DNA of 45,949 bases, from positions 1 to 45,949 of the forward strand of contig LCRX01000008.1 in the NCBI GenBank assembly GCA_001004885.1, read 5' to 3'. The notes under the pieces are model-generated. The model saw only the letters and a program-made list of their open reading frames with translations. It did not search any database and had not been told where the DNA came from. The position numbers and the translations under genes were made by a program. Below are positions 1,881 to 43,200 of this stretch, in pieces; positions within the stretch are counted from its first letter, which is position 1, and every line of letters starts with the position of its first letter. This DNA is from Candidatus Magasanikbacteria bacterium GW2011_GWA2_56_11. Lineage in GTDB: Bacteria > Patescibacteriota > Patescibacteriia > Magasanikbacterales > UBA922.

Positions 1881-1953
1881 ATATAAATTTTTAATAATAA
1901 ACAAAGTTTAGTTTTGTGCGCCTGGATGGAATCGAACCATCTGCTTCCACCTT

Positions 1954-2117
1954 ATATCTACAGATATATTTACGTCACTCCTAGAAAATACAAACTCCTG
2001 GTGCGCCCGCTTGGACTTGAACCGAGGACCCCTGCCTTATAAGGGCAGTGCTCTAACCACTGAGCTACGGGCGCATTAGCGCACCGGGAATTTGTATTTT
2101 GCTACTCGCTAGTAAAT
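1954..2117 (-). other. 164-base insertion in tRNA anticodon loop carrying a tRNA
   Basis: The insertion sits in the anticodon loop of the outer tRNA and contains the inner tRNA. Its flanks are complementary: 2087-2100 pairs with 1985-1998 over 14 pairs (one G-U), and 2112-2120 pairs with 1965-1973 over 9 pairs (this second stem uses a few boundary bases), so the inner tRNA would sit at the tip of a long extension of the outer anticodon arm. Near the 3' boundary, 1955-1968 holds a self-complementary stretch. No candidate 3' joint leaves a G as the last intron base, and the free flank is only about 88 bases, so a group I intron core does not fit. Four bases (TATA) are repeated at the two edges, resembling a target duplication or a splice ambiguity. 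Confidence 0.7.
1999..2074 (-). tRNA. tRNA-Ile(UAU), nested inside another tRNA
   Basis: Complete cloverleaf on the minus strand: acceptor GCGCCCG/CGGGCGC, TA, D arm GCTC-AGTGGTTA-GAGC, anticodon stem CTGCC/GGCAG with loop CTTATAA (anticodon UAU, reading AUA), 5-base variable loop, T arm CTCGG-TTCAAGT-CCAAG (one C-A mismatch), discriminator A and an encoded CCA at 2001-1999. Encoded CCA is absent from the three other tRNA genes in the window (outer Ile, Arg, Lys), which suggests a separate origin. Bacteria usually read AUA with a lysidine-modified CAU anticodon, so UAU is unusual. Its identity as an isoleucine tRNA rests on the anticodon and A73. Confidence 0.88.
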
Positions 2118-2192
2118 ATAAGGGTGGCACTCTAACCGATGAGTTACAGGCGCGTTTATTGTTAGAAGTATACCATTATTTACAATTATTTC

Positions 2193-20692: not shown

Positions 20693-23600
20693 ATGTTTCG
20701 TCTTTTTACCCCCAAGAGACGCCGATTGGCGGCTATCGCCCTGGCGGCCCTGGTTATCGGTGTTGAGGTCGGGGTGTCGCTGCTGCGGCCGGAGCGCGCT
20801 TATGCTGTCGGCGCTCCGGACGTCGTGGCCGCCCTCACCGGCAAATGGAGTTCGGACAAGATCGCCGAAGGTTTGCTGGCGAGCACCTTGGGCGCGCTCG
20901 TGAACGGGGTATCCTATTTCATGCGTAAATTGGCCTATGACGGGGCGCAATACATCGCTTCCGGCGGCAAAGGGCAGGGGGCGTTGGCGTTCCAGGACGG
21001 GTTTGGGAAATACCTGCAAAATGAAATCGGCAACAGCGTTGCCTCGGCGGTAGACGAATTCGGCAAGCCGTTCGGACTGAATTTGTGCACGCCGCCGGAT
21101 GTTAATTTGCAAATATACCTGCAGGTGGGTATCCGCCGGCTTTACGCCGACCCCACGCTTGCGGGCAAGGGCGGACCGCAGCCCAACTGTACCTGGCAGC
21201 AGTTCAGCGACAGCTGGGGCGACCTGTCGGTCGAAAGTATCGCCGAGTCCGGGCGGGACGTGGTTTCACAAAGTTTCGCCAATGCCCTGCGCGTCAACCA
21301 GAGCGATTTTGGCGTTGCGCTGGGGTTTGCCGGCCAGGTGGACCGGCTGGTCGCCCAGGGTCAAGTGGGGGCCGATCGCGCCCGGCTCGAGGGCATGGGC
21401 TTTAAGTCGCTCACCGACCTTATCTCCGGAGATATCAAAACGCCGGCCACTATTATCCAGGAAGAGACCAAGGCCCTGACGGCCAAACATCAGGGAGAGA
21501 TCACCGCCGGCCAAATAGCCGGCATATACGGCGCCGGCATGTGGCAGGTAATACCCTCGGCCGCCAGCGTTTTTTTGAATACTTTGGTGTCGCAGGTGTT
21601 GCAGAATATGATGACCGACGGCTTGCTGCCTTCTCAGGCCAGCGTCGTCGAGAGCGGTACGGGCGACGTAGTACGTGAGTATTCCGGTGTTATCAATAAA
21701 AACCGCTTCGCCGCGGCGAATGCCTTTAACTTTCTTTTTACGGCCGTGCCGGCACAACAGCTGGATGATTACGCTTTGATCGAAGAGTACAACAACTGTC
21801 CCGATGTTCCGGGCATTAATAACTGTGTGGCCGATGCCGGTCTACTTCAGGCCGTCAAATTGTCGCGTACCGGTACGCCCTTGACTATTCAGGAGGCGAT
21901 GGACAAAACATTATTGCGCGAGGACTGGCCCCTTATTCCGCCGACCAGAGAGGACCTTAACGAGGATTTACGTCGCTGTTTTCTTAAGGGTTACTGCTAT
22001 TCGAATATTCAAAAATTGCGCAAAGTGCGCATCTTGCCGCTTGGCTTCGAAGTTGCCGCTCTAAAGGCCGATCCAGACCAGCTCCAAAATTGGACGCTTG
22101 GAAATATCGTTCGGGGATTCGAGCAGTGCGCTCAGAGCGGCCAACCTGATCCCAAATTTCCGTTTTGTCATCTTATAGACCCTAATTGGGTTATTCGTTT
22201 GCCGGAATCGCGCTGTGAATCAAAGGTTTTTGGTCCGAGTCTACTGAGCAGTAACAACCCGGCGCGTCGCGAAGAGTGCGTGGATATCTCTACCTGTATT
22301 GCCGAGGATAGCCAGGGCCAGTGCGTTGGGGACTATGGTTACTGTCTCAAAGAAAAAAATGTCTGGGCGATCGAAGCTAAGTCGTGCCCAGCTGAATATG
22401 GGACCTGCACCACTTACATCAACGATAAGGACGGCGGCCTAGCCTCGTATCTGTCCCGTACTGTGGAATACGGCGAGTGTACCCCGGAATCAGTCGGCTG
22501 CCGCGCTTACAGCGCCGAGCAGGTGAACGGGGAGTGGGTTAAAAGCGGCGTTCAGTTTAGCTTGGCAGCCAAGCGCCAGGGCCGGCCCCAGGCTTTATTC
22601 TTCAATGATGCCGCCAAGAGCTATCAAAACCAATGTTCACCGTCATCCGAGGGCTGCGGAGCTTTTTACCAAGTTTTGCCCGGCGGGCAAAAAGGCTCTC
22701 TTTTGGCACATGATCTGCGCAAGGCGCCGGATTACCTGTACAGCCAGTGTTACGACATGGATTTGGCCACCATCCCGGTCGAGTGGCCGAAGAGCCAGGC
22801 CGATATCGCGAAGCTCGATAACCGTCCGGGCGCGGAATCGTGCCTAAACTTTGCCCGGGCCTGTACCCCGGACGAGTCCGGTTGCGAGGCGTTTACGCCC
22901 CAGGACGAAAATAGCGGCCCGGCCGTTACGGGCGTGGTCGGCGCCAACGAGTGCGCTCCCGCCTGCGTCGGTTACGACACCTTTAAGCAAGAGGCGAGCG
23001 ATTTTGAACCGGCTAAGTTTCCCCTCCACTTCGTGGCCTCTGACGGGTCTTCCTGCCCGGCAGATTACGTCGGGTGCAGCGAATTCACCAATATCGAAGC
23101 CGCTGTCCAGGGCGGAGAGAGTTTGCGCTATTACAGTGGTATCCAGTATTGCCAAAAGCCGACGGGGCAAAATGAAAGCACTTACTACTCGTGGGAGGGC
23201 ACGGCCAAAGAAGGCTACGTGCTAAAGATCCACAAGATGCTTCCGGTCAACCAAAAGGAGCGCGAGTACCTGCTTAGCCTGCAGTTTGACGGCGTATACG
23301 CGTCGGCCGTGGACCAGTCTTTCCCGGTAGGTTCCCCGGCTTACGCGGATGACAGCCCCGAGGCTCTCGCCGCCGCCCACGACGACTGTAACCAGTATAA
23401 TTACCAGATCGCCCTCAATAACCCGCATGATCCGGCGGCGGCCGCGGCCAATTGCCGGGCGCTCTACAATGACGAGGGTACTGTCTTTTACCGTTTGTCG
23501 GGCCAGACCGTAACCGTGTCGCCGCTGTGTCTGACGCTGCGCAAAACCGAGACCAATCTGTATCCGGACGGCAATATCAAAACAGCGGCCATGTGCGCCG

Positions 23601-26600
23601 ACAGATCCGGCTTCTGGAATGGCGCTGCCTGCGAGCGCTGCTACAAAGGGGGCCAATATCAGGCTGGAGTTTGTATTTACAGTTCGATCGAGTCCGAAGC
23701 CAACCAGTGCGCCGGCCCTGCCGACGACCGCGGCCGCTACAACGGCTGCCGGGCATACACTGGCAATGCGGCCAGTAACATTGAAGAAGTGGTGGAGACG
23801 ATAGATTTTGAGCCGATGGGCCAGAGCAACGACGCCTTGAACCAAGCCAAAAAAGGCTGGCTGGCCGGGGCGGTAAAGCCTGAGTCAATGACGGTGGGGC
23901 AGTATTCCTTGGAAGTAAACGTCAATGAGGCCGATTACCTGCTTCCTGCCGGCACGCTTAGGCCCGGCGTCTGGTACGAACTCAGGTTCTGGGCGCGCGG
24001 GCAGAACCAGGTATTGGATGTCGGCCTGGCGCAAGGTGGAACAGTGGTAAATACCTTTACTATCAACCCGGTTACCGGCGACACCCTTCTCGCAAGCATT
24101 GGCCCGGCTTGGCAGGCTTACAAATTAGGTCCGATAGAATTCACCGGCTCGGCAGATTCAGACGTTCTGGTGCGTTTTAAACGCGGCGCGGTCGGCACCG
24201 GTCCGGTAGGTCCGTACTATCTAGATAATGTCGGCCTGACTAAACTCGATGAAACTACTCCGCTCATCAAGAACAGCTGGCGGCGCCAGGTTGACTACCC
24301 GGCAGAGGGGCAGACAGCAAGCGCGGACGTGGATTTGGCCTGCGACCAAAATCCGACGGACGCTTTTCCGGGAGAAGCGCTGGGTTGCCGGGCCTATAAA
24401 AACAGCGACGGCAGCCCGGTGTTCGCCACCGGCTTTGCCCGCCTGTGCCGTCCGGCCGCTGTGGGCTGCCGGCCTCTTGTGGACACCTTCAACACGGTTG
24501 AGACCGATGACGAGGCGCTCGCAGGTGCTTTCAACCTCTGGTGTGCCGGGGCTGCCGGCAAAAAATGCGAGCTGAAGACCGCTTCGGGCAATGCTGTTTT
24601 GGGCGCTTGCGACGTGCCGCTCGGCGCCTCTGGCTGCTATATAGCCCGCTCCAGCGCCCTCGAGGTAACCGATTTCCCGGCCGCGGGCATAGTTACCTCG
24701 ACAGTTATCGTGCCGGCCGATACGCCGGCTTCCGCCCCGGTTTATCTCACCGACAGCAAAGACTACCGTTGCACCGAATCCGAACGCGGTTGCCAGAAAG
24801 TCGCCCTCGAAGACCAGCTGTTGCCGGAGATCGGCCCCAGCTCTTCGGCGTTCAGCGAAACTATGGTTAAAAACGATCCGGCTCTCTACGGCCAGGTGTT
24901 GTGTATGCAAGAGCAACTAGGCTGTGGGGCTTACAAGGCGAACAGTGAAATTGTTTACTTCAAGGATCCTAAAGTAACTGGTAACAGGCTATGCAAATAT
25001 CGGACGACGGAAATTAACGGCCAAACCTATACTGGATGGTTCATGGATGGCGTCGGCCGCTGCGGCGCGGGCGGTCCGCTGTGCCGCAGCAGTGCCGAGT
25101 GCCAGAACAGCGAACAGTGTTCCGATATTGATCTGGTGCCCTGTTACAGCGGCTATTTGGCCGAAGGCCAATACGGCATTTGGTCGAACAAAACTCCGGC
25201 CTACCAGGGTTTTGTCGGCGTCTGTGAGAGCCAGTACAACCAGTGCACCGAGCTGGTCGACCCGGCGGACAGCTCGGGCGGGAACCCCGACGGCAAGCCT
25301 TATTACGTTATCCTGGATCAGAAGGCTAAAAACAAAGCCCAGGCGTGCAACCAGCAAGTGAGCCTTAAGGACGGCTGCGTGCTGTTTGACAAAACCGACG
25401 AGCCGACCAAGCTCTACGACAGCGCCGCTACCTACGCGGCCGCTGAAAATGAGGACCCTAAGTATGGTCCGACCGCGCCTTCCACCGCTGGTAACCTGGA
25501 CACGAATATTATCCTCAAAGCCGCGCGCAACCGCGCCTGCAGCGAGTGGCTGGCCTGTCGTGATTCCGTTCGCGTGATCGGCAGCAACGGCCAGCCGCGT
25601 AACATTTGCGCGCAGTACAAGTCGTGCCAGGCGTCAGCCAATGGTGGAGCGTGTTCTGATTGGACTGAATTCGATAAAGTTGACCTGTTTCCTTTGACCG
25701 AACAGGAATATATAAGCCGCGATACATCTTGGTTTGGCCGTGATTATTCCGGGTATTCTTTGTTTAATAAGTACCAAATTAATAACCTGAGCTATTTGAG
25801 CGACGCCGATACCGGCATCAACTATCTAGCCTATGAAGTCCCGCCAGCTTTTTTTAGCCCCAGCAGTCCGGCCGTGGGCCAAGGTTGTTCTGGCAAGCCG
25901 GACTGGTCCGGTAAATGCGGGCTTGATGGCGGCGGTCGTTGCTACAAAGGTAAATGCTACTACCCGCTCGACGGTAAGTTCCCAAACGGCATTGACCAGA
26001 AGAACGAGGCATTGCTGGAATTAGAGCCCGGTACCTGTAAGGCGTTCCCGGAGCAGATATCACCATACCCGGATTCTTACAGCGTTGAAGCAGACACCTA
26101 CGAACCACTAGATCCAGCCTATTTGGCGCGGCGCGAGTACCGCCAGAAGCGCTCCGGGTACGAGTCGGCCAATCTGTGCCAGAGCGGAAATTGTTCGTGC
26201 GAATATAAAAAAGTAACCTACAAGAATTCTCAGGTAGACTATTGGGATCGTTCAGTCGTCAAATATCCTCCTGGTATCTGCGAGGGCGGCGATTACGATG
26301 GGCGCGGTTGTTCCGAAGATAAGGACTGTGAAAAGCAGGATAAGGGTGTCCTCGTCTCTGCGGGAACGTGTTCTCGAGTCCGGGATATCGAACGCCGTCT
26401 GGGTCTTAGGGGCTTCTGTCTCGAGTACGACCTCAGCCGTCCGCTCAACAAGGATGCCGGCGAGTATGCCTGCCTTACCTGGCTTCCGGTAGACACCTCG
26501 GCTACAAGTCTTGATCAGTTCAACAACTTTTCTGACGCGGGGTATGACCCGGCTTTCGATGCTGTTACGGTTAGCAGTGACGGAACTAAGTCTAGCAATG

Positions 26601-29320
26601 GCGTTATTTACTGTGCGGAAGCAACCGGCAATAGTCTTGGCGCGTACGATGCCAATGCTTTCGTGGCCATTGATTCTTCGTGCACGGAAAGTCCCTTTAA
26701 ATGCAACAGTTATCTTTACCAGACTCTGTTTAACAAACACGGTGATTACATCGCTGGCGGCGGCTTTTACGGGGCGACCGGCGTCCAGTCGCAAGCTTGT
26801 TACGCTTGGAGTTGTTCTCCTGGAATTTTTTACTTTAAAGGTCTCAATTTGCAAACGCCCATACCCGCTCCAGGAGCGGGTATAACCGAGGATGAATACC
26901 GGAAAAAGGTATACTCGCTTATGCAGATGTGGGCCTGGGCCGGCGGCATGTACGGCAACGGCCTGTCGAGCATTCTTAGCCAGAATGGCGGCTATGCTTG
27001 GCAACCGTCGGGTGGGATGCCCGCGCCCAAATCTCTCGGGGAATACGAAAATGATGAGGAAGACAGCCAACTTTTTCTGCCGGACGATTTGAAGTATCCG
27101 AACGCGGTTGTTACCTTTGTTTCCGGCCACTATTACCGCAATTATTTATTTACCAGTATTGAACGATACGAAAAGGGTGGGTGCGGATCGGCCGGCGGCT
27201 TTAGCGGATCTTGCGGCAAGCTCTATTATTCTCACCAGCCGCTTTGGGTGGGCGTCGGAGATTTCGACGGGGATGTCCAGAACTTTTTCCAGCCCGGTCT
27301 CTACCAGGACTACGCCAGCGATTATCGGCAGATCGAATCCGAGATCAAGGCCTTGCATTTCGGCCCGGTAATGGGGCTGGTCCGGATGGCCAAAGTACTG
27401 ACGATTGACTTCGATAAACTGGCCAGCAAAGAATTCCTTTCCAAGACCACGCCGAACGGCCTTAAGTACAAAGTGCAGTTGGACGTCGATTCGGACAAGA
27501 ACGTGGTTACCTTCCGTTTGCGCGCCGATGACGGCCCGACGGCCGGCGAGACCAAGTACGCCGCCTACGCTTTCGCGCACAACAGCGCTCCGACCGCTGA
27601 CTTTTTTGCTGGCAAAAGTGCAGAGGTTTTCTTGCAGAAGAAGTTTGAAGAGCTCGCCGGTGACACGAGCGGTGGTAACTGGTACCAAGACGTGCAGAAT
27701 GCCTGGGCTCCGACACAAGGCGCGTTGGGTTTTTATTCAGTCACTGTTGGCTTTGGCCAAAATGGGGAGAAGAATTTTTGGGAAGAACACGGCCTGCTTA
27801 ACTCGGACAGCGCCGGTCTCGTAAACCACATCTTTCAGCACGGAGACAAATTCGCCACCTTTTATCTGGCCGAAGTCATGGAATTAAAGCCGCGCTGCAC
27901 TGCTTTTGTTCAAGTTTACACCGATACTCCGGCAGCCGATGGTACGACAGATAAAGCCTGGACCAACCGGGTTTGGGAGCGGGCCAGCGAGATCTGGAAG
28001 ACTCCCCCGACGCCCGCATTGACCCGCGGAACACCTTTGGTTTCCTACGGGTCAACCAATCTGGCCGCGACTCACCTTCTCAAGAGCAACTGGCCCGAAG
28101 TTTTAAGGCGGTATGTGTTCACGGACCCGCAATATGAAGGGGCGTTCTATGCCTGCGGCGGCCCGGTGCTTGAGCCGAAGGGTGAATTCGCCAAAGTCTT
28201 CAAAGAGGGAAGCATCGGTAAAACCAGTCCTGGAGATGGACAGATGGGGTTGTGGACGTTCTACAAATGCTACCAGAATAGCGGCACAGTTTACGATTCT
28301 ATCCCAAATGGCATTGCCACGAAGGTCGTGAGCGGACAGGTGAAGTTCGATTACTTCAATACTCCGGGGATGGACTATTTGCGCCAGTTATTTAAGAAGT
28401 CTTTTCGTACCATCGAGCACGACGCCGTCAATTCCACCTGGAAAGAGTCCACCGCGGATTTCGGCAATGATAACGAACCAGATCTTATTCCACCGCAGAT
28501 TTATTCACTTGATCCTTCTTGTTTCCTGACGACGGATAAGGTTATCCGCTGCCACGCCGCCGAGTCTAATAACGTGACCATTGACCGGCGCAACTTTACT
28601 ACCGCAGACTACGACGGCAACGGTCAGGCCGATGAGGACCTGGATTTCGATCAAATCCCCGATCCGATTATCAGCAAACGTTTTTACACCGCCAAACTTC
28701 AGTTCTTTGCCTTTGCCGACAAGAACCGCCTGCCGATACGCCGGGTCAAGGTCGATTGGGGCGACGGCACAGTTTTTAACGAGGATCGTTATGGCCGCTA
28801 CCGTAACAGCAAACCGTTTTGCATGGCAAGCGACGATCAGGAGAATCCGGATATCGGTGAATGCAAAAATTCTCCGCAGTTGACCTGTGAAAATGACAGC
28901 GACTGTCCTGGCGCCGACACTTGCCAGATCGGAGCCATCGCCCGGAACTTCGGCAACTCGCCGCGTGCTTGCACTGAGGGAGCTTTCGAATTTATACACG
29001 GTTACACCTGCTCGCAAATAGATATTGACCTGAACGCCACGTACGTGAAAGCTTTCGAGGCGCTTACCGCTTCGGAACAGAAGTGGTTGAACCAGCTCGG
29101 CTACAGCCAAGACAAGAACCCGAAAGTCTGCGTCTTTGAACCGCGCGTTCAGGTACTTGATAACTGGGGATGGTGCAGCGGTATGTGCGACGTTGATTAT
29201 AACAAAGATGGTAAGTTAGATCTTAAGGATGGTTGTTATCAGGATAAAATTTTTGCCTGCAATAAAGACAGCAATACATGGATAAAATATAACGGTCGGA
29301 TTATCGTGATTCCCAAATAA
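20693..29320 (+). CDS. Giant cysteine-rich exported protein (2875 aa)
   Basis: I do not recognise the full protein. An N-terminal Sec signal (LAAIALAALVIGVEVGVSLL ... AYA) precedes a helical region without cysteine to about residue 130. From there to the end I count about one hundred cysteines. In residues roughly 540-1420 a short motif recurs, G-C-x-A/x-Y/F: SVGCRAY, SEGCGAF, ESGCEAF, YVGCSEF, YNGCRAY, ALGCRAY, QLGCGAY. Compact C-x5-C-type knots occur later (GPLCRSSAECQNSEQC, GRGCSEDKDCEKQ, LTCENDSDCPGADTC). A PKD-like motif, VKVDWGDGT, lies near residue 2690, and a calcium-loop-like DVDYNKDGKLDLKDGC near the end. The protein is presumably surface-located with many disulfides. It follows the calcium-repeat gene after ten bases and ends at a strong terminator. 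Confidence 0.8.
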   Translation: MFRLFTPKRRRLAAIALAALVIGVEVGVSLLRPERAYAVGAPDVVAALTGKWSSDKIAEGLLASTLGALVNGVSYFMRKLAYDGAQYIASGGKGQGALAFQDGFGKYLQNEIGNSVASAVDEFGKPFGLNLCTPPDVNLQIYLQVGIRRLYADPTLAGKGGPQPNCTWQQFSDSWGDLSVESIAESGRDVVSQSFANALRVNQSDFGVALGFAGQVDRLVAQGQVGADRARLEGMGFKSLTDLISGDIKTPATIIQEETKALTAKHQGEITAGQIAGIYGAGMWQVIPSAASVFLNTLVSQVLQNMMTDGLLPSQASVVESGTGDVVREYSGVINKNRFAAANAFNFLFTAVPAQQLDDYALIEEYNNCPDVPGINNCVADAGLLQAVKLSRTGTPLTIQEAMDKTLLREDWPLIPPTREDLNEDLRRCFLKGYCYSNIQKLRKVRILPLGFEVAALKADPDQLQNWTLGNIVRGFEQCAQSGQPDPKFPFCHLIDPNWVIRLPESRCESKVFGPSLLSSNNPARREECVDISTCIAEDSQGQCVGDYGYCLKEKNVWAIEAKSCPAEYGTCTTYINDKDGGLASYLSRTVEYGECTPESVGCRAYSAEQVNGEWVKSGVQFSLAAKRQGRPQALFFNDAAKSYQNQCSPSSEGCGAFYQVLPGGQKGSLLAHDLRKAPDYLYSQCYDMDLATIPVEWPKSQADIAKLDNRPGAESCLNFARACTPDESGCEAFTPQDENSGPAVTGVVGANECAPACVGYDTFKQEASDFEPAKFPLHFVASDGSSCPADYVGCSEFTNIEAAVQGGESLRYYSGIQYCQKPTGQNESTYYSWEGTAKEGYVLKIHKMLPVNQKEREYLLSLQFDGVYASAVDQSFPVGSPAYADDSPEALAAAHDDCNQYNYQIALNNPHDPAAAAANCRALYNDEGTVFYRLSGQTVTVSPLCLTLRKTETNLYPDGNIKTAAMCADRSGFWNGAACERCYKGGQYQAGVCIYSSIESEANQCAGPADDRGRYNGCRAYTGNAASNIEEVVETIDFEPMGQSNDALNQAKKGWLAGAVKPESMTVGQYSLEVNVNEADYLLPAGTLRPGVWYELRFWARGQNQVLDVGLAQGGTVVNTFTINPVTGDTLLASIGPAWQAYKLGPIEFTGSADSDVLVRFKRGAVGTGPVGPYYLDNVGLTKLDETTPLIKNSWRRQVDYPAEGQTASADVDLACDQNPTDAFPGEALGCRAYKNSDGSPVFATGFARLCRPAAVGCRPLVDTFNTVETDDEALAGAFNLWCAGAAGKKCELKTASGNAVLGACDVPLGASGCYIARSSALEVTDFPAAGIVTSTVIVPADTPASAPVYLTDSKDYRCTESERGCQKVALEDQLLPEIGPSSSAFSETMVKNDPALYGQVLCMQEQLGCGAYKANSEIVYFKDPKVTGNRLCKYRTTEINGQTYTGWFMDGVGRCGAGGPLCRSSAECQNSEQCSDIDLVPCYSGYLAEGQYGIWSNKTPAYQGFVGVCESQYNQCTELVDPADSSGGNPDGKPYYVILDQKAKNKAQACNQQVSLKDGCVLFDKTDEPTKLYDSAATYAAAENEDPKYGPTAPSTAGNLDTNIILKAARNRACSEWLACRDSVRVIGSNGQPRNICAQYKSCQASANGGACSDWTEFDKVDLFPLTEQEYISRDTSWFGRDYSGYSLFNKYQINNLSYLSDADTGINYLAYEVPPAFFSPSSPAVGQGCSGKPDWSGKCGLDGGGRCYKGKCYYPLDGKFPNGIDQKNEALLELEPGTCKAFPEQISPYPDSYSVEADTYEPLDPAYLARREYRQKRSGYESANLCQSGNCSCEYKKVTYKNSQVDYWDRSVVKYPPGICEGGDYDGRGCSEDKDCEKQDKGVLVSAGTCSRVRDIERRLGLRGFCLEYDLSRPLNKDAGEYACLTWLPVDTSATSLDQFNNFSDAGYDPAFDAVTVSSDGTKSSNGVIYCAEATGNSLGAYDANAFVAIDSSCTESPFKCNSYLYQTLFNKHGDYIAGGGFYGATGVQSQACYAWSCSPGIFYFKGLNLQTPIPAPGAGITEDEYRKKVYSLMQMWAWAGGMYGNGLSSILSQNGGYAWQPSGGMPAPKSLGEYENDEEDSQLFLPDDLKYPNAVVTFVSGHYYRNYLFTSIERYEKGGCGSAGGFSGSCGKLYYSHQPLWVGVGDFDGDVQNFFQPGLYQDYASDYRQIESEIKALHFGPVMGLVRMAKVLTIDFDKLASKEFLSKTTPNGLKYKVQLDVDSDKNVVTFRLRADDGPTAGETKYAAYAFAHNSAPTADFFAGKSAEVFLQKKFEELAGDTSGGNWYQDVQNAWAPTQGALGFYSVTVGFGQNGEKNFWEEHGLLNSDSAGLVNHIFQHGDKFATFYLAEVMELKPRCTAFVQVYTDTPAADGTTDKAWTNRVWERASEIWKTPPTPALTRGTPLVSYGSTNLAATHLLKSNWPEVLRRYVFTDPQYEGAFYACGGPVLEPKGEFAKVFKEGSIGKTSPGDGQMGLWTFYKCYQNSGTVYDSIPNGIATKVVSGQVKFDYFNTPGMDYLRQLFKKSFRTIEHDAVNSTWKESTADFGNDNEPDLIPPQIYSLDPSCFLTTDKVIRCHAAESNNVTIDRRNFTTADYDGNGQADEDLDFDQIPDPIISKRFYTAKLQFFAFADKNRLPIRRVKVDWGDGTVFNEDRYGRYRNSKPFCMASDDQENPDIGECKNSPQLTCENDSDCPGADTCQIGAIARNFGNSPRACTEGAFEFIHGYTCSQIDIDLNATYVKAFEALTASEQKWLNQLGYSQDKNPKVCVFEPRVQVLDNWGWCSGMCDVDYNKDGKLDLKDGCYQDKIFACNKDSNTWIKYNGRIIVIPK

Positions 29321-34907: not shown

Positions 34908-35106
34908 ACCGTAAATGATGGTTAGCGAACATTTTGGCGAGTCTCCGGTCTCTGGCACAGCTAAACACACAAGGGAGTATGCACACGTCCGCGCAGACAA
35001 TCTACCCGAGCGTGCGACAGGCGAAAGGAACTCTTGGCGTGTGCGCGTTTGCCTGTTTCTCCCCGATGTTTCAAGTTTAGCCCGCAGCGCCGCTGCGGGT
35101 TTTTTA
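34908..35106 (+). ncRNA. Structured leader or small RNA upstream of toxin gene
   Basis: From the expected transcription start to the terminator is about 200 bases, ahead of the toxin start codon at 35127. GCACACG (34981-34987) can pair with CGTGTGC (35038-35044), enclosing about 50 bases with further pairing potential. I recognise no known riboswitch, SRP RNA or 6S RNA. It is either a stand-alone small RNA or an attenuated 5' leader of the toxin gene. Confidence 0.5.
35081..35106 (+). terminator. Intrinsic terminator before the toxin start codon
   Basis: Stem CCCGCAGC (35081-35088) with GCTGCGGG (35092-35099), loop of 3, then seven T (35100-35106). It lies 20 bases before the toxin ATG. Confidence 0.85.
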
Positions 35107-35126
35107 TTCTTCAAATCGCTTGCCGT

Positions 35127-38100
35127 ATGCGCCGTGCTATTATCAGTTTCCTGGCTCTGCTCATGGTGCTGCCTACGCCGCTGTCCGCACTGGCCCAGAC
35201 GAGCACCGATGAATCCCAGATTCTGCCGCCGCCGGCAGAATCTGCGGTCGTTCCTGCCGGCCCGCTTATGGGGCCTGAAAGCGAGTCGGCAGATACCACG
35301 GAGCCGCAACCGGGCGAGACAGCGGCCGCCCCGGCAGCAGAAACCGCAGCGACCCCGGGGCGCCGGCGCCACTATCCGGAGTTCATGCGCGCGCTGTCCG
35401 CCAGTCGGCGCGCCAAAACCGTATTTTCAGACACCGAACGGACAGAGCTCAAAAGCGACTTCGAGGCCTTTGTGGCGGCCGAGCAGGAACGGCTGGATAA
35501 ATTGTCCGTCCCGGCCAGCCGGGAGCGCGCTTACCTGAAACGGTTACAAAAAATGCACGGCGCCGTGGATAATACCCAAGTCGGACGCCTGGGTAGTTTG
35601 TGGCAGAAAGTGCGCGAGGCTGTCGGTCTCGATGCCGACGGCGCTGTTTTTGAAGAGGAAGAGCCGCGCGGATACCGGATCCCGGCGCAGCCCGCCCGGT
35701 TTTCTTTTCCGTTTGAAACGGCCAGAGTTGAGTCGCTTCGCGATGTGACTGTCAGTCACGAGCCGAGCCAGAATACATCCGGTCTGCTCGAGTCCCTCAG
35801 CGGGCGCGTGCGTATCCAGCCGGTTTCGGCCGAGGACGACGATCCTTATTTGCCGACGCTCTCCGACGTGCAGGCCGACGACGGGGAAATAACAATCACC
35901 AACGAGATCAGGGATCTGGCCCGGGCGCTGGAATTTAACCCGGTGAAGATTTTTAATTTTGTCCGGACTAATATCCGCTACGAGCCGTACTTTGGGGCCA
36001 AAAAGGGGAGCGCCGGCTGTCTCGCCGAGGGTATCTGCAACGACACGGACGCGGCCTCGCTCACCATCGCTCTTCTGCGCGCCGCCGGCATCCCGGCGCG
36101 GTACAAGAAAAGCATCGTCGTGGTCGAAACCGCGCGACTCAAGGAGCTTTTGGGCGTGGATGAGGTAAAGACGGTTTACGCCGCTTTCGCGGGCAATAAA
36201 GTGCCCATTTTCACTCTGGGAGATACGCCGCAGCCGGAAATGCTGGACGAGGCTAACTTGGAGAGCGAAACCCATCTCGCGCTGGAGTGGACATTTCCGG
36301 TTGCGTTTTACGACTATGACGAGCGCGGCGGCAATTTTTCCAATTCCTTATCCCTCGATGAGCTGTCATCCACGGCTGAGCTCCAGGCATTATTGGGGAG
36401 TTTCCCGGCCAAGCAGTGGATTCCTCTCGACATCTTAATCAAGCCCTATGCCAGAACTAAAAATGAAATCGTCGCCGACTCTGCCGGGTGGGGAGCCCAA
36501 TCTTTCTTTGCTTCGTATTTGCAGTACCAGGGCGGCCTCTCCCCGCTGGCTAAATATGCGGCCGATCTGAAAACTCAGACCGGTAAAGACATTGCCGTTG
36601 CCGCCTACCAATCGGACCGCACAGGCGCAACGTCGGCTTTCGCTGTCCTGCCGCCCTCCTTGCCGTATGTGCTTGGCACCGGAGAAACCGGCGGCACGGT
36701 TATCGCGCCCGAGACCTGGTCGGTTTTGCCGTCCGCCCGGCGCTTTGAGATAACTCTCACGATCAAACGCGAATCGAACAACGAGACAGTGCTCGCCCAC
36801 ACCTGGTTTGCGAGTGCCATCGCCAACGTGCCGGTTGACCTGGTCTATGCCGGTTTTAACGCCGCTGACGAGGCTGTTATCGCGAGTTATGGCGGTATTC
36901 ATGCCACCCCGGCCGAGCTGGCGCAGCTAAAGCCGGCCATTACCACTCAAACCGAGCGCTACGAGGGCGGAAGCCCGCTTTCTATCGGCGAGAACCTGGT
37001 GATGGAGTTCCGTTACAGCCGCGGCGGCGCGACAATTCATACTGACGAGAAGTTTTCGGCGGCCGGCAATCACGAGGGCATCTACATGGTCGTTTCGCGC
37101 GTGCTCGCCGACACTCTTTTGGACGACGACAGCGACCAGGACTACGCTTCGCGAGTGCTTCTCTCCGGCAATGCCGCGATCGCCAGAAGTTATCTGAAGC
37201 GCATCGAGGAAAGTGCCGAGACGATCGCCAAATCACTCGATTACAGCTACGCGACAGAGTTCGCCCGCGCGGTTATTACCCAAAATCGCCTGTTAAATCC
37301 AGTCAATGGGGTTCCCTCCACCTTTGACTTCGAAGGACTGACTATAGACGCCGCGAGCTATATCAACGACTATTCGAACCGCGGCCACTACAAGACCCAC
37401 CGCGACGCCTTCCGTCTGCTCTGGGGCCTCGAGGCCTCATACTACGAGGGTCGGCAGTTTACCGATTTGGCCGGCCTCGATGCGATCTCGACCGTGATCG
37501 GTCTGCAGTATGTCTCTGCCAATCCTGGCGCTTACACTTTGCACACTATCAACCAGGCGAACGAAAGCGTGATCGATACTCTGGGCCTTTCGGATAACAC
37601 CAAAGCCAACTTGCACGCGGACGTGGCTAAGGGCAATACCATTTACACGCCGGACCGGCCGGTAGAAAAAGGCGCGTTTACCGGTATTCTTTATATTTCA
37701 CTCGATCCGAATTGGACCGGAACATACGCGATCGGAGAACAAGTAGGACAGAACGGGGGATGGACGATTGACGATTACCAGGTGGCCAGTTATCAGGCGG
37801 ACGGCTGGTTCCGGGAATTTTTGTTCAAATATCAGCCGGGGGCAACCGACAAGAATCGTTTTGTCTATCAGGATATGCCGGCGGCGACGGCTAGCGTGCT
37901 GTGTACTCTCAGCGAGGCCACGTATAACGCGATAAAATCAGATTCCGGCTGGAATGATGCGTACGGACACCCTTGCGCCAAAGAAACAAAACAGTTCGGT
38001 TTGGTGTCCCACACTTATATTCTCGCTACTGACGGGGCCAAGTTTTTCGCTCCCGAAAAGTATAACTACTGGGTAACTAGGGATGCGGCGCAAGCTATTG

Positions 38101-39686
38101 TCCAAAGTCAAGTGTCAAAACCCGACGGCAGCAAATTTAAATTCAATCCGATTGCCGGCACTTACTTCTATGGGGCGTCATTCGCCGTGTACTACCAGCC
38201 GACCGCGGCCGGCAGCGGAGCGGCGTGGAAAGTGCAGGATAAAATTCTGGCCAAGCTATCCGAAATCCATTACGATCCGCAGCTATATTACTGTGCGCCG
38301 GCCAATGCTTATTGCGTGGGCGGCAAGAAAAACTGGGTGCTCGACAAGCTGGGCTACCCCACCGAGCCGCAAAAGTCCGGGGCCGTCAGTTTGGCCGGTA
38401 CCGGCGGATATTATCAGACGTTTATCGGCGGGCAGGTATACGTCGAAACGGATTGGTTCGACGAGGCCTACTATGTGCCGGGGGAAATAGCCCAGGTGTT
38501 CAACAGTCCACAGTACGAGCTGGACGGAGAGGTCGGTACCGGCGGGACTTTCGGTTGGCCGCTTGGAGATCCGAAAAAAGTGGCTGGTACCCTCTACCAA
38601 GATTTCGAAAGCGGACACCGTATCAGTTCGATCGGCGGACTGCAAGATAAGGCTTATAAAATCGTCGTCGAGATAGATTATGGCGCCGGCGAGTACCAGG
38701 ATATTTTTCTTGACGGCTTCATGGACGCTTTCCGTGAAGCCGATTTCTACGGCTTTGCCGTGGCTTTCGGGGAGGGCGTCGTGATCAACGAAGTAGTCAA
38801 ACAGGTGGTGAAAAAGTTTAAAGGAAAAGTGGTTACCCGCGTTGCCGTCCGCTGGGTGCCTTTCTTGGGCTGGACTATCGCCGGGCTGGAGACGCTGGCG
38901 TTTGCCCAGCAGAATAAACCGCTCTACGACGCCTGCCAGGCAGACCCTTATACAAATCCTCCCAGTCCGATCCTCGCTGGGGCTAAACCGGCGTACTACT
39001 GCGGCAAGCTCGGGGCCCAGGCGGTGATCGTCGCTCTGGGGGCGGCCTCGGATTATGTCGGGACAAAGATTAACCGGCTCTATGTAACGTCCAAGGCGGC
39101 GCGGCTAGGTAAAAATAAACTGTTCGCCAAGATTACCGACGAGAGCAAAGGGACCCTTGTCCGGGGAGCTTTTGAAAGCAACCCTGATACGCGTACATCT
39201 GTCGCCCAGTTGGCGGACAGGCTCGGCGACAGCGACCTGGTAAAATTGGCCAACGACCCCAAATTAGTCAAGCGCCTGCTCACGGACCAAGATTTTCTCA
39301 TTTTCAATACCGCCAGCCGCGACCTTGGCCGCTATGAGCATATATTCATGGGTGATGCGGCCGGGGGCTGGCATTACTATCCCTTAGGCCGACCAGGGAG
39401 CAAAATAACCAATAAAGTTACGGGTAAAAATGGCGTGTATAAAGGAACGGTAGAGATTGCGGTAAACGGTCAGCCGGTGGAACCAAAGCTTAGCACTTTT
39501 TTTCCGGATAGCTGGACCGAAAAGGATGTCCTTACGGCAATTAACCAAGCCTACAATAAAAGAGTAAGAAAACCGAATACGCCGAACAGTTTTGTCGCGA
39601 CTGTCAACAACGTGGAAATTGAGATGTACATCGAGCTGAACACGAATAAAATTATCAGCGCTTTTCCCTCGAATAATAATTTTTAA
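35127..39686 (+). CDS. Exported polymorphic toxin with C-terminal EndoU-like RNase
   Basis: A 1519-residue exported protein. Signal peptide MRRAIISFLALLMVLPTPLS to about ALAQ; alanine/proline-rich linker; transglutaminase-like domain at about 265-395 (FNFVRTNIRYEPYFGAKKGS, LTIALLRAAGIPARYKK); a long beta-rich region; LGFP-type wall-binding repeats at about 1050-1170 (FGWPLGDPKKV, LYQDFESGHRI); a hydrophobic pre-toxin stretch near 1220-1310; and at 1404-1519 a domain matching bacterial EndoU nucleases: EHIFMGD and GGWHYYP (His1405, His1416), LSTFFPDSW (1455-1463), KIISAFP at the end. EndoU toxins cut RNA. In the transglutaminase part, cysteine is two residues from the expected place (Cys304), so its activity is doubtful. 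The next gene, one base away, fits an immunity gene. Confidence 0.82.
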   Translation: MRRAIISFLALLMVLPTPLSALAQTSTDESQILPPPAESAVVPAGPLMGPESESADTTEPQPGETAAAPAAETAATPGRRRHYPEFMRALSASRRAKTVFSDTERTELKSDFEAFVAAEQERLDKLSVPASRERAYLKRLQKMHGAVDNTQVGRLGSLWQKVREAVGLDADGAVFEEEEPRGYRIPAQPARFSFPFETARVESLRDVTVSHEPSQNTSGLLESLSGRVRIQPVSAEDDDPYLPTLSDVQADDGEITITNEIRDLARALEFNPVKIFNFVRTNIRYEPYFGAKKGSAGCLAEGICNDTDAASLTIALLRAAGIPARYKKSIVVVETARLKELLGVDEVKTVYAAFAGNKVPIFTLGDTPQPEMLDEANLESETHLALEWTFPVAFYDYDERGGNFSNSLSLDELSSTAELQALLGSFPAKQWIPLDILIKPYARTKNEIVADSAGWGAQSFFASYLQYQGGLSPLAKYAADLKTQTGKDIAVAAYQSDRTGATSAFAVLPPSLPYVLGTGETGGTVIAPETWSVLPSARRFEITLTIKRESNNETVLAHTWFASAIANVPVDLVYAGFNAADEAVIASYGGIHATPAELAQLKPAITTQTERYEGGSPLSIGENLVMEFRYSRGGATIHTDEKFSAAGNHEGIYMVVSRVLADTLLDDDSDQDYASRVLLSGNAAIARSYLKRIEESAETIAKSLDYSYATEFARAVITQNRLLNPVNGVPSTFDFEGLTIDAASYINDYSNRGHYKTHRDAFRLLWGLEASYYEGRQFTDLAGLDAISTVIGLQYVSANPGAYTLHTINQANESVIDTLGLSDNTKANLHADVAKGNTIYTPDRPVEKGAFTGILYISLDPNWTGTYAIGEQVGQNGGWTIDDYQVASYQADGWFREFLFKYQPGATDKNRFVYQDMPAATASVLCTLSEATYNAIKSDSGWNDAYGHPCAKETKQFGLVSHTYILATDGAKFFAPEKYNYWVTRDAAQAIVQSQVSKPDGSKFKFNPIAGTYFYGASFAVYYQPTAAGSGAAWKVQDKILAKLSEIHYDPQLYYCAPANAYCVGGKKNWVLDKLGYPTEPQKSGAVSLAGTGGYYQTFIGGQVYVETDWFDEAYYVPGEIAQVFNSPQYELDGEVGTGGTFGWPLGDPKKVAGTLYQDFESGHRISSIGGLQDKAYKIVVEIDYGAGEYQDIFLDGFMDAFREADFYGFAVAFGEGVVINEVVKQVVKKFKGKVVTRVAVRWVPFLGWTIAGLETLAFAQQNKPLYDACQADPYTNPPSPILAGAKPAYYCGKLGAQAVIVALGAASDYVGTKINRLYVTSKAARLGKNKLFAKITDESKGTLVRGAFESNPDTRTSVAQLADRLGDSDLVKLANDPKLVKRLLTDQDFLIFNTASRDLGRYEHIFMGDAAGGWHYYPLGRPGSKITNKVTGKNGVYKGTVEIAVNGQPVEPKLSTFFPDSWTEKDVLTAINQAYNKRVRKPNTPNSFVATVNNVEIEMYIELNTNKIISAFPSNNNF

Positions 39687-40215: not shown

Positions 40216-43200
40216 ATGTTCCGTCCCGCTAAACCCCTCTTAATTCTGGTCGTCGGCCTCATGGCCCTTTTGGAGTTTGCTCCGGCCTTGGCCGCTACCA
40301 GAGCGCCGGCCGCACCTGTTCCCGTGTCGTTCGGGGCAGATCAGACGGCCGATTTACCTAAACCGGCCGTATCGGTTACTACCGTCTGGTCAGCCGTCAA
40401 CTGGGATGCCGAAGTAGTGCTTTTGCCGGCGCTGGAAGAGACGGCTCGCGGACGGAGGGTCCTGCTTGATGCAGGGCGAAACGCGGAGGCGGCGGCCCTA
40501 TCTCCGGAGCGTGTCAGCCTGAGCGACGAGCGGGCGCTGGAGTACTACCGCGTGCCTGGAGATATCCGCGCGCTGGTACGGGAATACCGTAAATCCGCTG
40601 CCGGCTTGATGGGCGAGGCGCGGACAAGACGCTTGGAGGCTCTTCAGTCAGAGATCAAGGCCCGGACGGCGCCCGGTCGAGCGGCACCGTCGCCGGTCAT
40701 GCAAGATCTCTCAGCCGATGCGGGCGCCATGATCGATGTTGGATCCGCCTCGCAGCTTAAGGGGCTGCAGCTGATCGGGGGGCGAGAAGCGCGGTTGTTG
40801 AAAGAAGGTGTCAGCGTCCGCCTCAACGCGCCGGGTACAGCCGACAGGCACCCGCTCCTGCGCGTAACACTGCCGGCCATACAAAAAGCGCAACGTCAAT
40901 CAACCGCGGACCGAGAGAACCAGGACGCGGCAGGACGCGTCAGCTGGTATGATCGGGCAGTTAGCTACGTCAAGGGCCTTTTTATCGCCGCACCGGTATT
41001 GGCGGATGATCCCACGCCGATTATGGCGTATTACGCCGGCATCGAGGAGCGGACGATGGACTACATTTTGTATCATCTCGCGCAAACCCAAAATGCCGAC
41101 GGCAGTTTCGGGGCGTATAACCAGTATGAATTGACCGGTAATGTTGTCCTTCTCCTGTCTGAATTCGGGCGCACCGCGAGCGGCCAGTACAGTCTGGCGC
41201 TTAACTATTTGAAGACGGCTACCCCGCAAAACAATCGCGAAAAGGCGCTCAAAGCGCGGCTTATGTATGGCTTGGGCGAACCGTACCAGGCCATCCTCGA
41301 CGAGCTCGCGTCCGAACAGAACGCCGAGAACGGCGGTTGGGGGCTTACGCCGGGCTACGAGAGCGATGTCTTGACGACGCTCGAGGTCGTGATCGCGTAC
41401 GCGGTCTCGAACTACGGAGTTTCCGACAAACTGCCGGCCGGGCTCGCGTACGTGTCCAACCGGATTGGTTCCGACGGCGCTATGCATTACACGCCTGGCA
41501 GCCAGCCGAGTTATTATCTTATGAGTGAGACGCTCCGCTATCTCGCGCCGTTTGCCGATTATACTGTTTCGGACGGCGTGAATCAGGTGAGCATCCAAAG
41601 TAAAATTGACGCCATTTTAAATTTTTTGAAAGCGCATTACGATGAGGCCGCGGGTACGCTCGATTATTCGAGCGGTCTCGGCGACAAACTGGCGGTCCTC
41701 GACGCTCTGCAGACTTACGACACGGCGCCGGGCAAGCAGCAAGCGCTCTGGGACGAGACCATAGAGCAGCAAAGCGGTGATGGCAGCTTCGGAGACTCGC
41801 TTTATGACACGATATTAGCGCTGCGCTCGTTTCCCGAACCGGACTTGGAGATTACGACCGTAACGCCGAACGGACAGCTCGCTAATTACGCCCCGCTCAG
41901 CCTCACCTTTACTGTCAAAAATGTCGGCTATGCCCCTTCTGGCCAGTCTTTTATTTATTCTTTTGTCGACAAGGTGAGGATAGGCGACTCCATTGACTGC
42001 CTGGCTAACGGGCTAGTCTTAGAGCCCAACGCTGTCGGCACTCTGACTGCGGGTTACAGTACCGACAGCTTTATCGGCGATACAAACTTTTTGTTTTATG
42101 TTGAGGGCGCGGAAGACGCCGATCATGGTAACGACTGGCACGAAACAACTCTGGCTTTTGCCGGCGGGCAAAACGGCCAGCCGGCCCTGCCGATGTACTA
42201 CATCGCCCAGCAGTACGACAACGGCGGCGCGCCCGGTCTCAATGTCCGCTGGGCCACGAAATCCGATCCCAACCGCCTGAACTATGTGATCATGTTCCGG
42301 CCGCAAGGCACGAGCGGGTGGAGTTACTACGGGATAAGCAACTCGTGGAATGGAGCTTTTTTGACTGGCGCTTTTGCCGAAGGGGCGGTTTATGAAGTAA
42401 CGGCCGGCGTTCTCCACCAGGATGGGGCCACGGTTACCTATTTTACCAATCCGACTTCGGTCAAGGTAACCGGCAGCGAGACGCTTTATCGCGGCGGCGC
42501 GACCGGCCAAGTCACGCTGGACAGCGGGCCGACCGCCGATGTTTCCACCTGGGGTTACTCGGTTTCGGACAGAGCCGACGCTGCCGGCGTTGTGGAATAC
42601 GCCAATGTCCCCAACGGGACAACCGCGATCCGCGCGTACGAGTATCACCTGGATTCGCTCTGGACAAGAATCGCGGTTCCTGTATCGGCCACTACGACCG
42701 GCGCGCGGATTTTTACGCGTTTGAAGCCGGATACGGCGCCGCCTGTGGTGGATGGTTTTGAAATTCGGTATAAGAGCAACTTGATAGTGAAAAATAAAAA
42801 GGAAGTCGAGTTGTTCGTCTGGGGCTCGGATGACGTGGCGATAAAAGAGGCTGCATTTTATTTGTGGGACCCGGCCGAGAGCGCCTGGCAGTTTTTGGGT
42901 GCGTACGCCATGCAGAATAGTTACCAGGCTCTATTCCCATGGTATGTCCCGGAGGGCTTATTGGGCTCTGGTTATAAGGTAAAGGCTGTTTTACGAGACT
43001 ACCAGGGCAATCTGTCCGCCGAAAAAGAATGGGGACCGTTTACCGTTATTGACGGCGCGCCGCCAGCGTTTGCCTTTACCTCGCCCGTTGGGGGCGAGAA
43101 TTTGGCCCTGGGATCGGAGGCAGCGATTACCTGGGCTACCCAAGCGGTAAATAACGTATCCAAAGTAAGCCTTTATCTGCTGCGCGAGGACGGCTATGTC

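Follow-up and report, generated by a model that had tools for sequence, protein, structure and literature searches.

A complete tRNA-Ile(UAU) gene lies inside the anticodon loop of a second tRNA-Ile(UAU) gene in Candidatus Magasanikbacteria bacterium GW2011_GWA2_56_11, where it forms the middle of a 164-nt insertion (outer locus 2153–1917, minus strand). The window, by which we mean the whole stretch of 45,949 nt analysed here, corresponds to contig C8 in a Patescibacteria (CPR) genome (G000) of 1.25 Mb and 99% completeness. Such nests recur in other Patescibacteria genomes, and this points to a tRNA gene architecture without earlier description in the literature searched; a search for nested tRNA genes found no description, most subscription journals being outside its reach. 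On balance, we lean towards regarding the insertion as a tRNA cassette that is mobile, palindrome-armed and self-replacing, and not as a proven intron.

A first-pass annotation had placed a complete tRNA within the anticodon loop of another, the two outer halves being separated by 164 nt, and its coordinates proved exact. ARAGORN and Rfam (tRNA, 68.3 bits) both identify the inner gene at 2074–1999 on the minus strand, and at this locus they detect that gene alone, missing the interrupted outer tRNA. Joining the outer halves gives a sequence that ARAGORN recognizes as an intact tRNA-Ile(TAT), with anticodon CTTATAAGG and variable loop AAGCA, which bears out the claim that they form a perfect tRNA; outer and inner tRNAs are the same isoacceptor. 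Because TATA is present at both insertion junctions, the exact position of the break, after base 35 or base 37, is ambiguous. The features of the locus are as follows.

2117–2153, minus strand: 5' half of the outer tRNA-Ile(UAU), GCGCCTGTAACTCATCGGTTAGAGTGCCACCCTTATA, with the 5' strand of the acceptor stem, the D arm, the 5' strand of the anticodon stem and CTTATA
2075–2116, minus strand: 5' arm (x) of the insertion, 42 nt, which pairs with the 3' arm
1999–2074, minus strand: inner complete tRNA-Ile(UAU) with encoded CCA (ARAGORN, Rfam; 95% identity to the solo gene of genome G044)
1953–1998, minus strand: 3' arm (y) of the insertion, 46 nt
1917–1952, minus strand: 3' half of the outer tRNA-Ile(UAU), AGGTGG...CAGGCGCA, with the 3' strand of the anticodon stem, the variable loop, the T arm, the 3' strand of the acceptor stem and discriminator A
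2112–2120, minus strand: 5' strand of helix P1, TATATTTAC, starting within the anticodon (bases TATA)
1965–1973, minus strand: 3' strand of helix P1, GTAAATATA
2101–2111, minus strand: 5' side of the internal loop, TAGCGAGTAGC, including NNNN-GA, from sequence comparison with G054, G064, L138 and L142
1974–1984, minus strand: 3' side of the internal loop, CTAGGAGTGAC, including GA-NNNNN
2087–2100, minus strand: 5' strand of helix P2, AAAATACAAATTCC
1985–1998, minus strand: 3' strand of helix P2, GGAGTTTGTATTTT
1954–1967, minus strand: 5-bp hairpin ATATC-TGTA-GATAT directly before the outer 3' half, read from the sequence

The complementarity of 14 and 9 pairs proposed for the flanks of the insertion was found at 2100–2087/1998–1985 (P2, 14 pairs including one G-U) and at 2120–2112/1973–1965 (P1, 9 bp), with an 11/11 internal loop between them. 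The predicted minimum free energy (MFE) structure of a 251-nt segment shows the outer cloverleaf together with P1 and P2, and it keeps the greater part of the inner tRNA. At −93.1 kcal/mol, as compared with −67.7 ± 4.3 for shuffled sequences (z = −5.9; 0/200 as low), it is consistent with the earlier proposal that the whole transcript could fold as a tRNA whose anticodon arm is lengthened and capped by another tRNA. The hairpin at 1967–1954 competes with P1, which its 5' strand overlaps, and comparable hairpins were seen by eye in G064, L138, L142, L170 and G054. Immediately upstream of the nest (2190–2330) are two palindromes of the CCCCTCCCCTTATAGGGGAGGG type that resemble dispersed repeats. 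The window also contains three very long ORFs, at 20693–29320 (2875 codons), 35034–39686 (1550) and 40216–45456 (1746).

In pattern searches, ~5–9% of sampled Patescibacteria genomes had a tRNA 5' half immediately preceding a complete tRNA, nearly all of the genomes named here being metagenome assemblies. A generic pattern (GGTTAGAG..TA[AG]CTCAG, ~62-nt span) matched in 33 of 381 genomes of the class and, in a slightly narrower form, in 18 of 380 genomes of the phylum, while a second generic pattern matched in 19 of 286 class genomes; these counts include a few chance matches, and the patterns are biased to intact D arms and short 5' arms. Phyla beyond Patescibacteria were sampled through a scan of GTDB r220 for a tRNA-Ile(UAU) 5' half with a complete gene. 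It returned 39 stretches, nine of them nested; seven of these nine carry Patescibacteria-group names, and L165 belongs to the same class. The remaining stretches were ordinary tandem genes, with one chance match in Nitrospira.

Nests were recovered for Ile(UAU), Ile(GAU), Val (three anticodons), Met, Ala, Thr and Phe. An apparently strong restriction to tRNAs having A35 was dropped, as the pattern GGTTAGAG itself selects Ile and Val and the second pattern gave nests of Ala, Thr and Phe. Where the outer half is identifiable, inner and outer isotypes are nearly always equal, and every well-preserved outer half can be aligned to its inner tRNA and shares the isotype. Breaks concentrate at two positions, base 35 and base 37, which account for 26 of 51 well-aligned cases, and some insertions are exact, with nothing lost or duplicated, as in a tRNA-Met (CTCA^TAA, L315) and a tRNA-Ile (CTGA^TAA, L293). 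Two loci (L165, L299) are doubly nested, and G273 is a four-level nest in which three successive 5' halves precede a complete tRNA-Ile(UAU). A full tRNA with a 3' half, or a 5' half with a full tRNA, is a common arrangement among relatives. Because the architecture recurs in many independent assemblies, several times on long contigs (L021, 474 kb; L170, 463 kb; L298, 769 kb), chance and the assembly error raised at first pass are both very unlikely.

The longest perfect Watson–Crick stem between the flanks had a median of 9 bp in 70 loci and 6 bp in 58 control tRNAs (Mann–Whitney P = 2.6e-9), some of the control windows being shorter than the locus windows; this test was preferred to RNA duplex z-scores, which are uneven for AU-rich arms. 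Arms differ in sequence between most lineages. Arm families in other isotypes (TTCACCC..GGGCAAG, CCTGCCCGCC..GGCAGGCGGG and TCCCG..CGGGA) recur across genera and isotypes, and dispersed tRNA-less arm palindromes of the form CCCGCAC..GTGCGGG were found 49 times, as against 5 for reversed controls, in 21 genomes. A 9-bp P1 is common to five Ile(UAU) loci (the window, G054, G064 and two Nomurabacteria), which were picked and aligned by hand and of which the window and G054 are close relatives; five of the nine pairs covary and none is broken. In four or five divergent Ile(UAU) loci the GA/GA internal loop keeps a fixed spacing, with NNNN-GA after P1 on one strand and GA-NNNNN before it on the other. 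As comparative evidence, covariation and spacing together suggest selection on the structure, short of proof. Of the nine loci folded, most are predicted to combine outer cloverleaf, helix arm and inner tRNA in the MFE structure. In broken tRNA-Ile copies (L083, L072, L073, L066, L016, L082), palindromes of the form TCCCGATnnnATCGGGA replace the 5' strand of the anticodon stem, and others stand in the T loop, repeatedly, in tandem copies.

Judged from one insert pair (window and G054) and from empty sites in G058, G065 and G071, the insert moves between tRNA genes, since its closest relative occupies another outer tRNA and the window's outer gene has homologues without an interruption. The relative was the second copy found among 59 relatives searched. 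It belongs to another family of the same order, its insert and inner tRNA are 82% identical to those of the window, and its outer tRNA, which differs from the window's, is identical to its own inner tRNA. Over 37 nt, the 5' half of the window's outer tRNA is 97% identical to a tRNA that is uninterrupted in G058, and the outer tRNA as a whole has three to five differences from the uninterrupted genes of G058, G065 and G071, none of which breaks a stem. The inner tRNA has four differences from the solo gene of G044 (family f8), which make up two compensated T-stem pairs. Because the differences from solo genes are compensated or stem-neutral, both tRNAs of the window look recently functional. 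A solo, uninterrupted tRNA-Ile(UAU), closer to that of other family members, is present on contig C5 of the window genome (L341, G000:C5:25259-25332), so either of the two nested copies is dispensable there.

According to the cassette reading, a DNA segment consisting of a complete tRNA gene and complementary arms would enter a same-isotype tRNA gene at its anticodon loop. The resident tRNA would be split and an intact copy supplied by the insert, at no cost to the cell, and an essential tRNA gene would retain only those cassettes that carry the matching tRNA. The inner tRNA would be the working gene, while the displaced outer tRNA would go unspliced, at first intact and later decaying. Invasion of the inner gene in its turn would build serial, Russian-doll nests, and recombination between direct repeats would leave a full gene with a 3' half, or a 5' half with a full gene, as relics.

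Replacement is favoured because isotypes match, inner genes are intact, outer tRNAs often cannot be rejoined and nests are serial. Of 68 testable loci, 46 have outer halves that ARAGORN does not recognize as a tRNA with the same anticodon, whichever of the junctions tried is used; the other 22 can be rejoined, some of the joins perhaps being accidental. The inner gene is intact in every locus, its intactness being how loci were called. In L332 the outer tRNA has lost its anticodon arm, in L165 the outer 3' half is lost at both levels, and in L007, L145, L319 and L293 palindromes occupy the D, T or variable loop of the outer tRNA. The first-pass annotation had left open whether the insertion was an intron with a cargo tRNA or had replaced the gene that it broke. 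Across relatives, in many of which the outer halves are decayed, replacement is the better supported; the intron is less so, yet the outer tRNA of the window genome is intact.

Several observations weaken the cassette reading. Among strict-pattern Ile(UAU) loci, the joined outer tRNA is intact in 11 of 12, above expectation for dead genes unless all are young, although the strict pattern is biased to intact 5' halves. The P1 covariation and the kept GA/GA spacing suggest selection on structure. Finally, given the solo tRNA-Ile(UAU), a matching isotype was not required for rescue in the window genome.

The candidate mover would be a homing endonuclease that cuts the anticodon loop, such as a free-standing GIY-YIG enzyme, or a single-strand transposase that recognizes hairpins. 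No transposase, integrase or nuclease tied to the insert was found, which also counts against the cassette, and the 164-nt insert contains no gene. A homing endonuclease is plausible because GIY-YIG genes lie between complete and broken tRNA-Ile(UAU) copies in several family members, and T4 SegB and a tRNA-fMet-specific endonuclease provide precedents. GIY-YIG genes number 1–12 per genome, some of them beside tRNA genes and none inside the nested loci seen. At five loci of the same family (L016, L082, L058, L072, L026), a small GIY-YIG nuclease gene directly follows a complete tRNA-Ile(UAU) and is itself followed by a broken tRNA-Ile copy.

The alternative that survives best, to which we give a minority share of belief, is a new class of tRNA intron, in which the arms and the GA/GA loop would hold the exons, the outer halves would be spliced by the RNA itself or by a ligase, and RNase P, with 3' processing, would release the inner tRNA, so that each transcript gives two tRNAs. 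The intact outer tRNAs of the window and of 11 of the 12 strict-pattern loci speak for it, as do L298, Ile(GAT), and L331, Val(CAC), each of which becomes a perfect gene again once the insert is taken out at 37/38. So do the exact insertions at 35/36 or 37/38 (L315 Met, L293 Ile), the covariation of P1 with its kept GA/GA spacing, and the joint folds predicted for most of the nine loci. Covariation between outer and inner tRNAs was rejected as proof of outer function, as both may have diverged before insertion.

Against an intron, neither the RtcB ligase (PF01139) nor the EndA splicing endonuclease (PF01974) was found in the 99% complete window genome, control archaea being positive for EndA, and splicing by EndA and RtcB was therefore rejected. 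The insert gave no match in Rfam to group I, group II or other introns or to ribozymes. For the group I core (RF00028) there was none either at the gathering threshold or at E ≤ 10; this model does detect three introns at other sites in the window genome. In group I introns the 5' exon ends in U and the intron in G; with junctions placed exactly so as to restore the loop, the last base of the window insert would be A or T. A group I identity, which the first-pass annotation had already doubted, was thus rejected. Nor does the window contain a strict bulge-helix-bulge (3-nt bulges around 4 bp), having the 9-bp P1 and the 11/11 internal loop instead, and no catalytic core is conserved across isotypes. 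Furthermore, most loci have a broken outer tRNA although the arms persist, the match of isotype between cargo and target has no reason if the outer tRNA is spliced, and the window genome has its solo tRNA-Ile(UAU). It seems unlikely to us that the insert is a tRNA-cored bacterial intron whose arms and GA/GA loop form a conserved splicing structure giving two mature tRNA-Ile(UAU) per transcript with no need of RtcB, EndA or a group I core; a splicing function retains a real but minor chance in the Ile(UAU) subset.

The group I introns of the same genome lie in tRNA-Phe(GAA), tRNA-Thr(UGU) and the 16S rRNA gene (loci L303, G000:C10:30654-30897; L305, G000:C15:46523-46863; L304, G000:C9:17256-17542), those of the two tRNA genes interrupting the anticodon loop at 33/34. 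The 16S rRNA intron is apparently followed by a reading frame resembling a homing endonuclease, and tRNA-Thr(UGU) is present in intron-bearing and intron-free copies.

We think it distinctly improbable that nests are by-products of local duplication, in which fold-back or template switching at tRNA hairpins would copy a gene and an inverted flank into its own anticodon loop with no element involved. Such an origin would suit G054, L153 and L169, whose outer and inner tRNAs are equal or nearly so, and also the difference of arm sequences between most lineages; in L153 the 5' arm resembles, by eye, the native upstream flank, and the 3' arm its partial inverse. It does not suit the insert that the window has in common with G054, yet in a different outer tRNA, the arm families that recur in different genera and isotypes, or the conserved spacing of the GA/GA loop.

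Anticodon loops are known attachment sublocations, and classical integration leaves a full gene and one partial copy. Although remnants with a full tRNA and a 3' half occur, some with a GIY-YIG gene between (L016, L082, L058), the footprint of a site-specific plasmid or phage integration at the anticodon loop, the element since deleted, is a very remote explanation, because here a complete gene stands between both halves with complementary arms, the 164-nt insert has no integrase gene, and all 112 stretches of viral contigs that match the Ile(UAU) pattern are ordinary tandem tRNAs. A phage source was rejected on this last count. A generic viral scan gave three matches, of which only L306 resembles a 5' half with a full tRNA-Val, and the lack of any long, integrase-bearing version of the insert was already seen in part.

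Known tRNA genes are intact, intron-bearing, split or permuted. Integrative elements that target tRNA genes restore the gene entered by carrying part of the tRNA; the nested insert is like them in that it brings the missing sequence along, so that its entry does no harm, and unlike them in that a whole gene lies in mid-insert and both old halves remain. T4 SegB mediates homing of the T4 tRNA region, and an endonuclease of this kind would give specificity for the anticodon site and copying of a tRNA-bearing segment; nested loci, in contrast, contain no endonuclease gene, GIY-YIG genes being found only beside some related tRNA-Ile copies. With REP and MITE palindromes moved by Y1 transposases (IS200/IS605, RAYT), the cassettes share hairpin arms, the lack of a clear target duplication and dispersed palindromes, but they carry a complete tRNA and have no transposase tied to them. 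An endonuclease for the anticodon region of tRNA-fMet is cited in PMC3984707.

Group I introns interrupt anticodon loops of bacterial tRNAs, as in Azoarcus pre-tRNA-Ile (reviewed in PMC3984707). They are mobile, as the insert appears to be, and two reside in tRNA genes of the window genome, tRNA-Phe(GAA) and tRNA-Thr(UGU); they have a catalytic core, whereas the insert has no Rfam match, 88 nt outside the inner tRNA, no terminal G and a tRNA cargo. The bulge-helix-bulge introns of archaea and eukaryotes, processed by TSEN or EndA, resemble it in a site at or beside 37/38 in some loci, a helix between intron and anticodon and spread between tRNA genes (transposition of archaeal tRNA introns is cited in PMC10714607), but here the host is a bacterium without EndA or RtcB and the insert contains a complete tRNA of the same isotype. 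Archaeal split tRNA genes with complementary leaders, such as tri-split tRNA (cited in PMC10714607), likewise have halves that complementary flanks could hold together; the nested halves differ in being cis-located, on either side of a further tRNA gene.

Nesting that recurs in Patescibacteria would extend the known tRNA gene architectures by one. Gene finders detect only the inner gene, which is a warning for annotation of these genomes, and the nests explain tRNA fragments found around their genes. If the outer tRNA were spliced, a bacterial splicing route without known enzyme or ribozyme would be involved. If, instead, the cassette reading is true, these mobile DNAs compensate for their damage with a copy of the gene that they destroy. 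The nests give a testable system for the invasion of essential tRNA genes.
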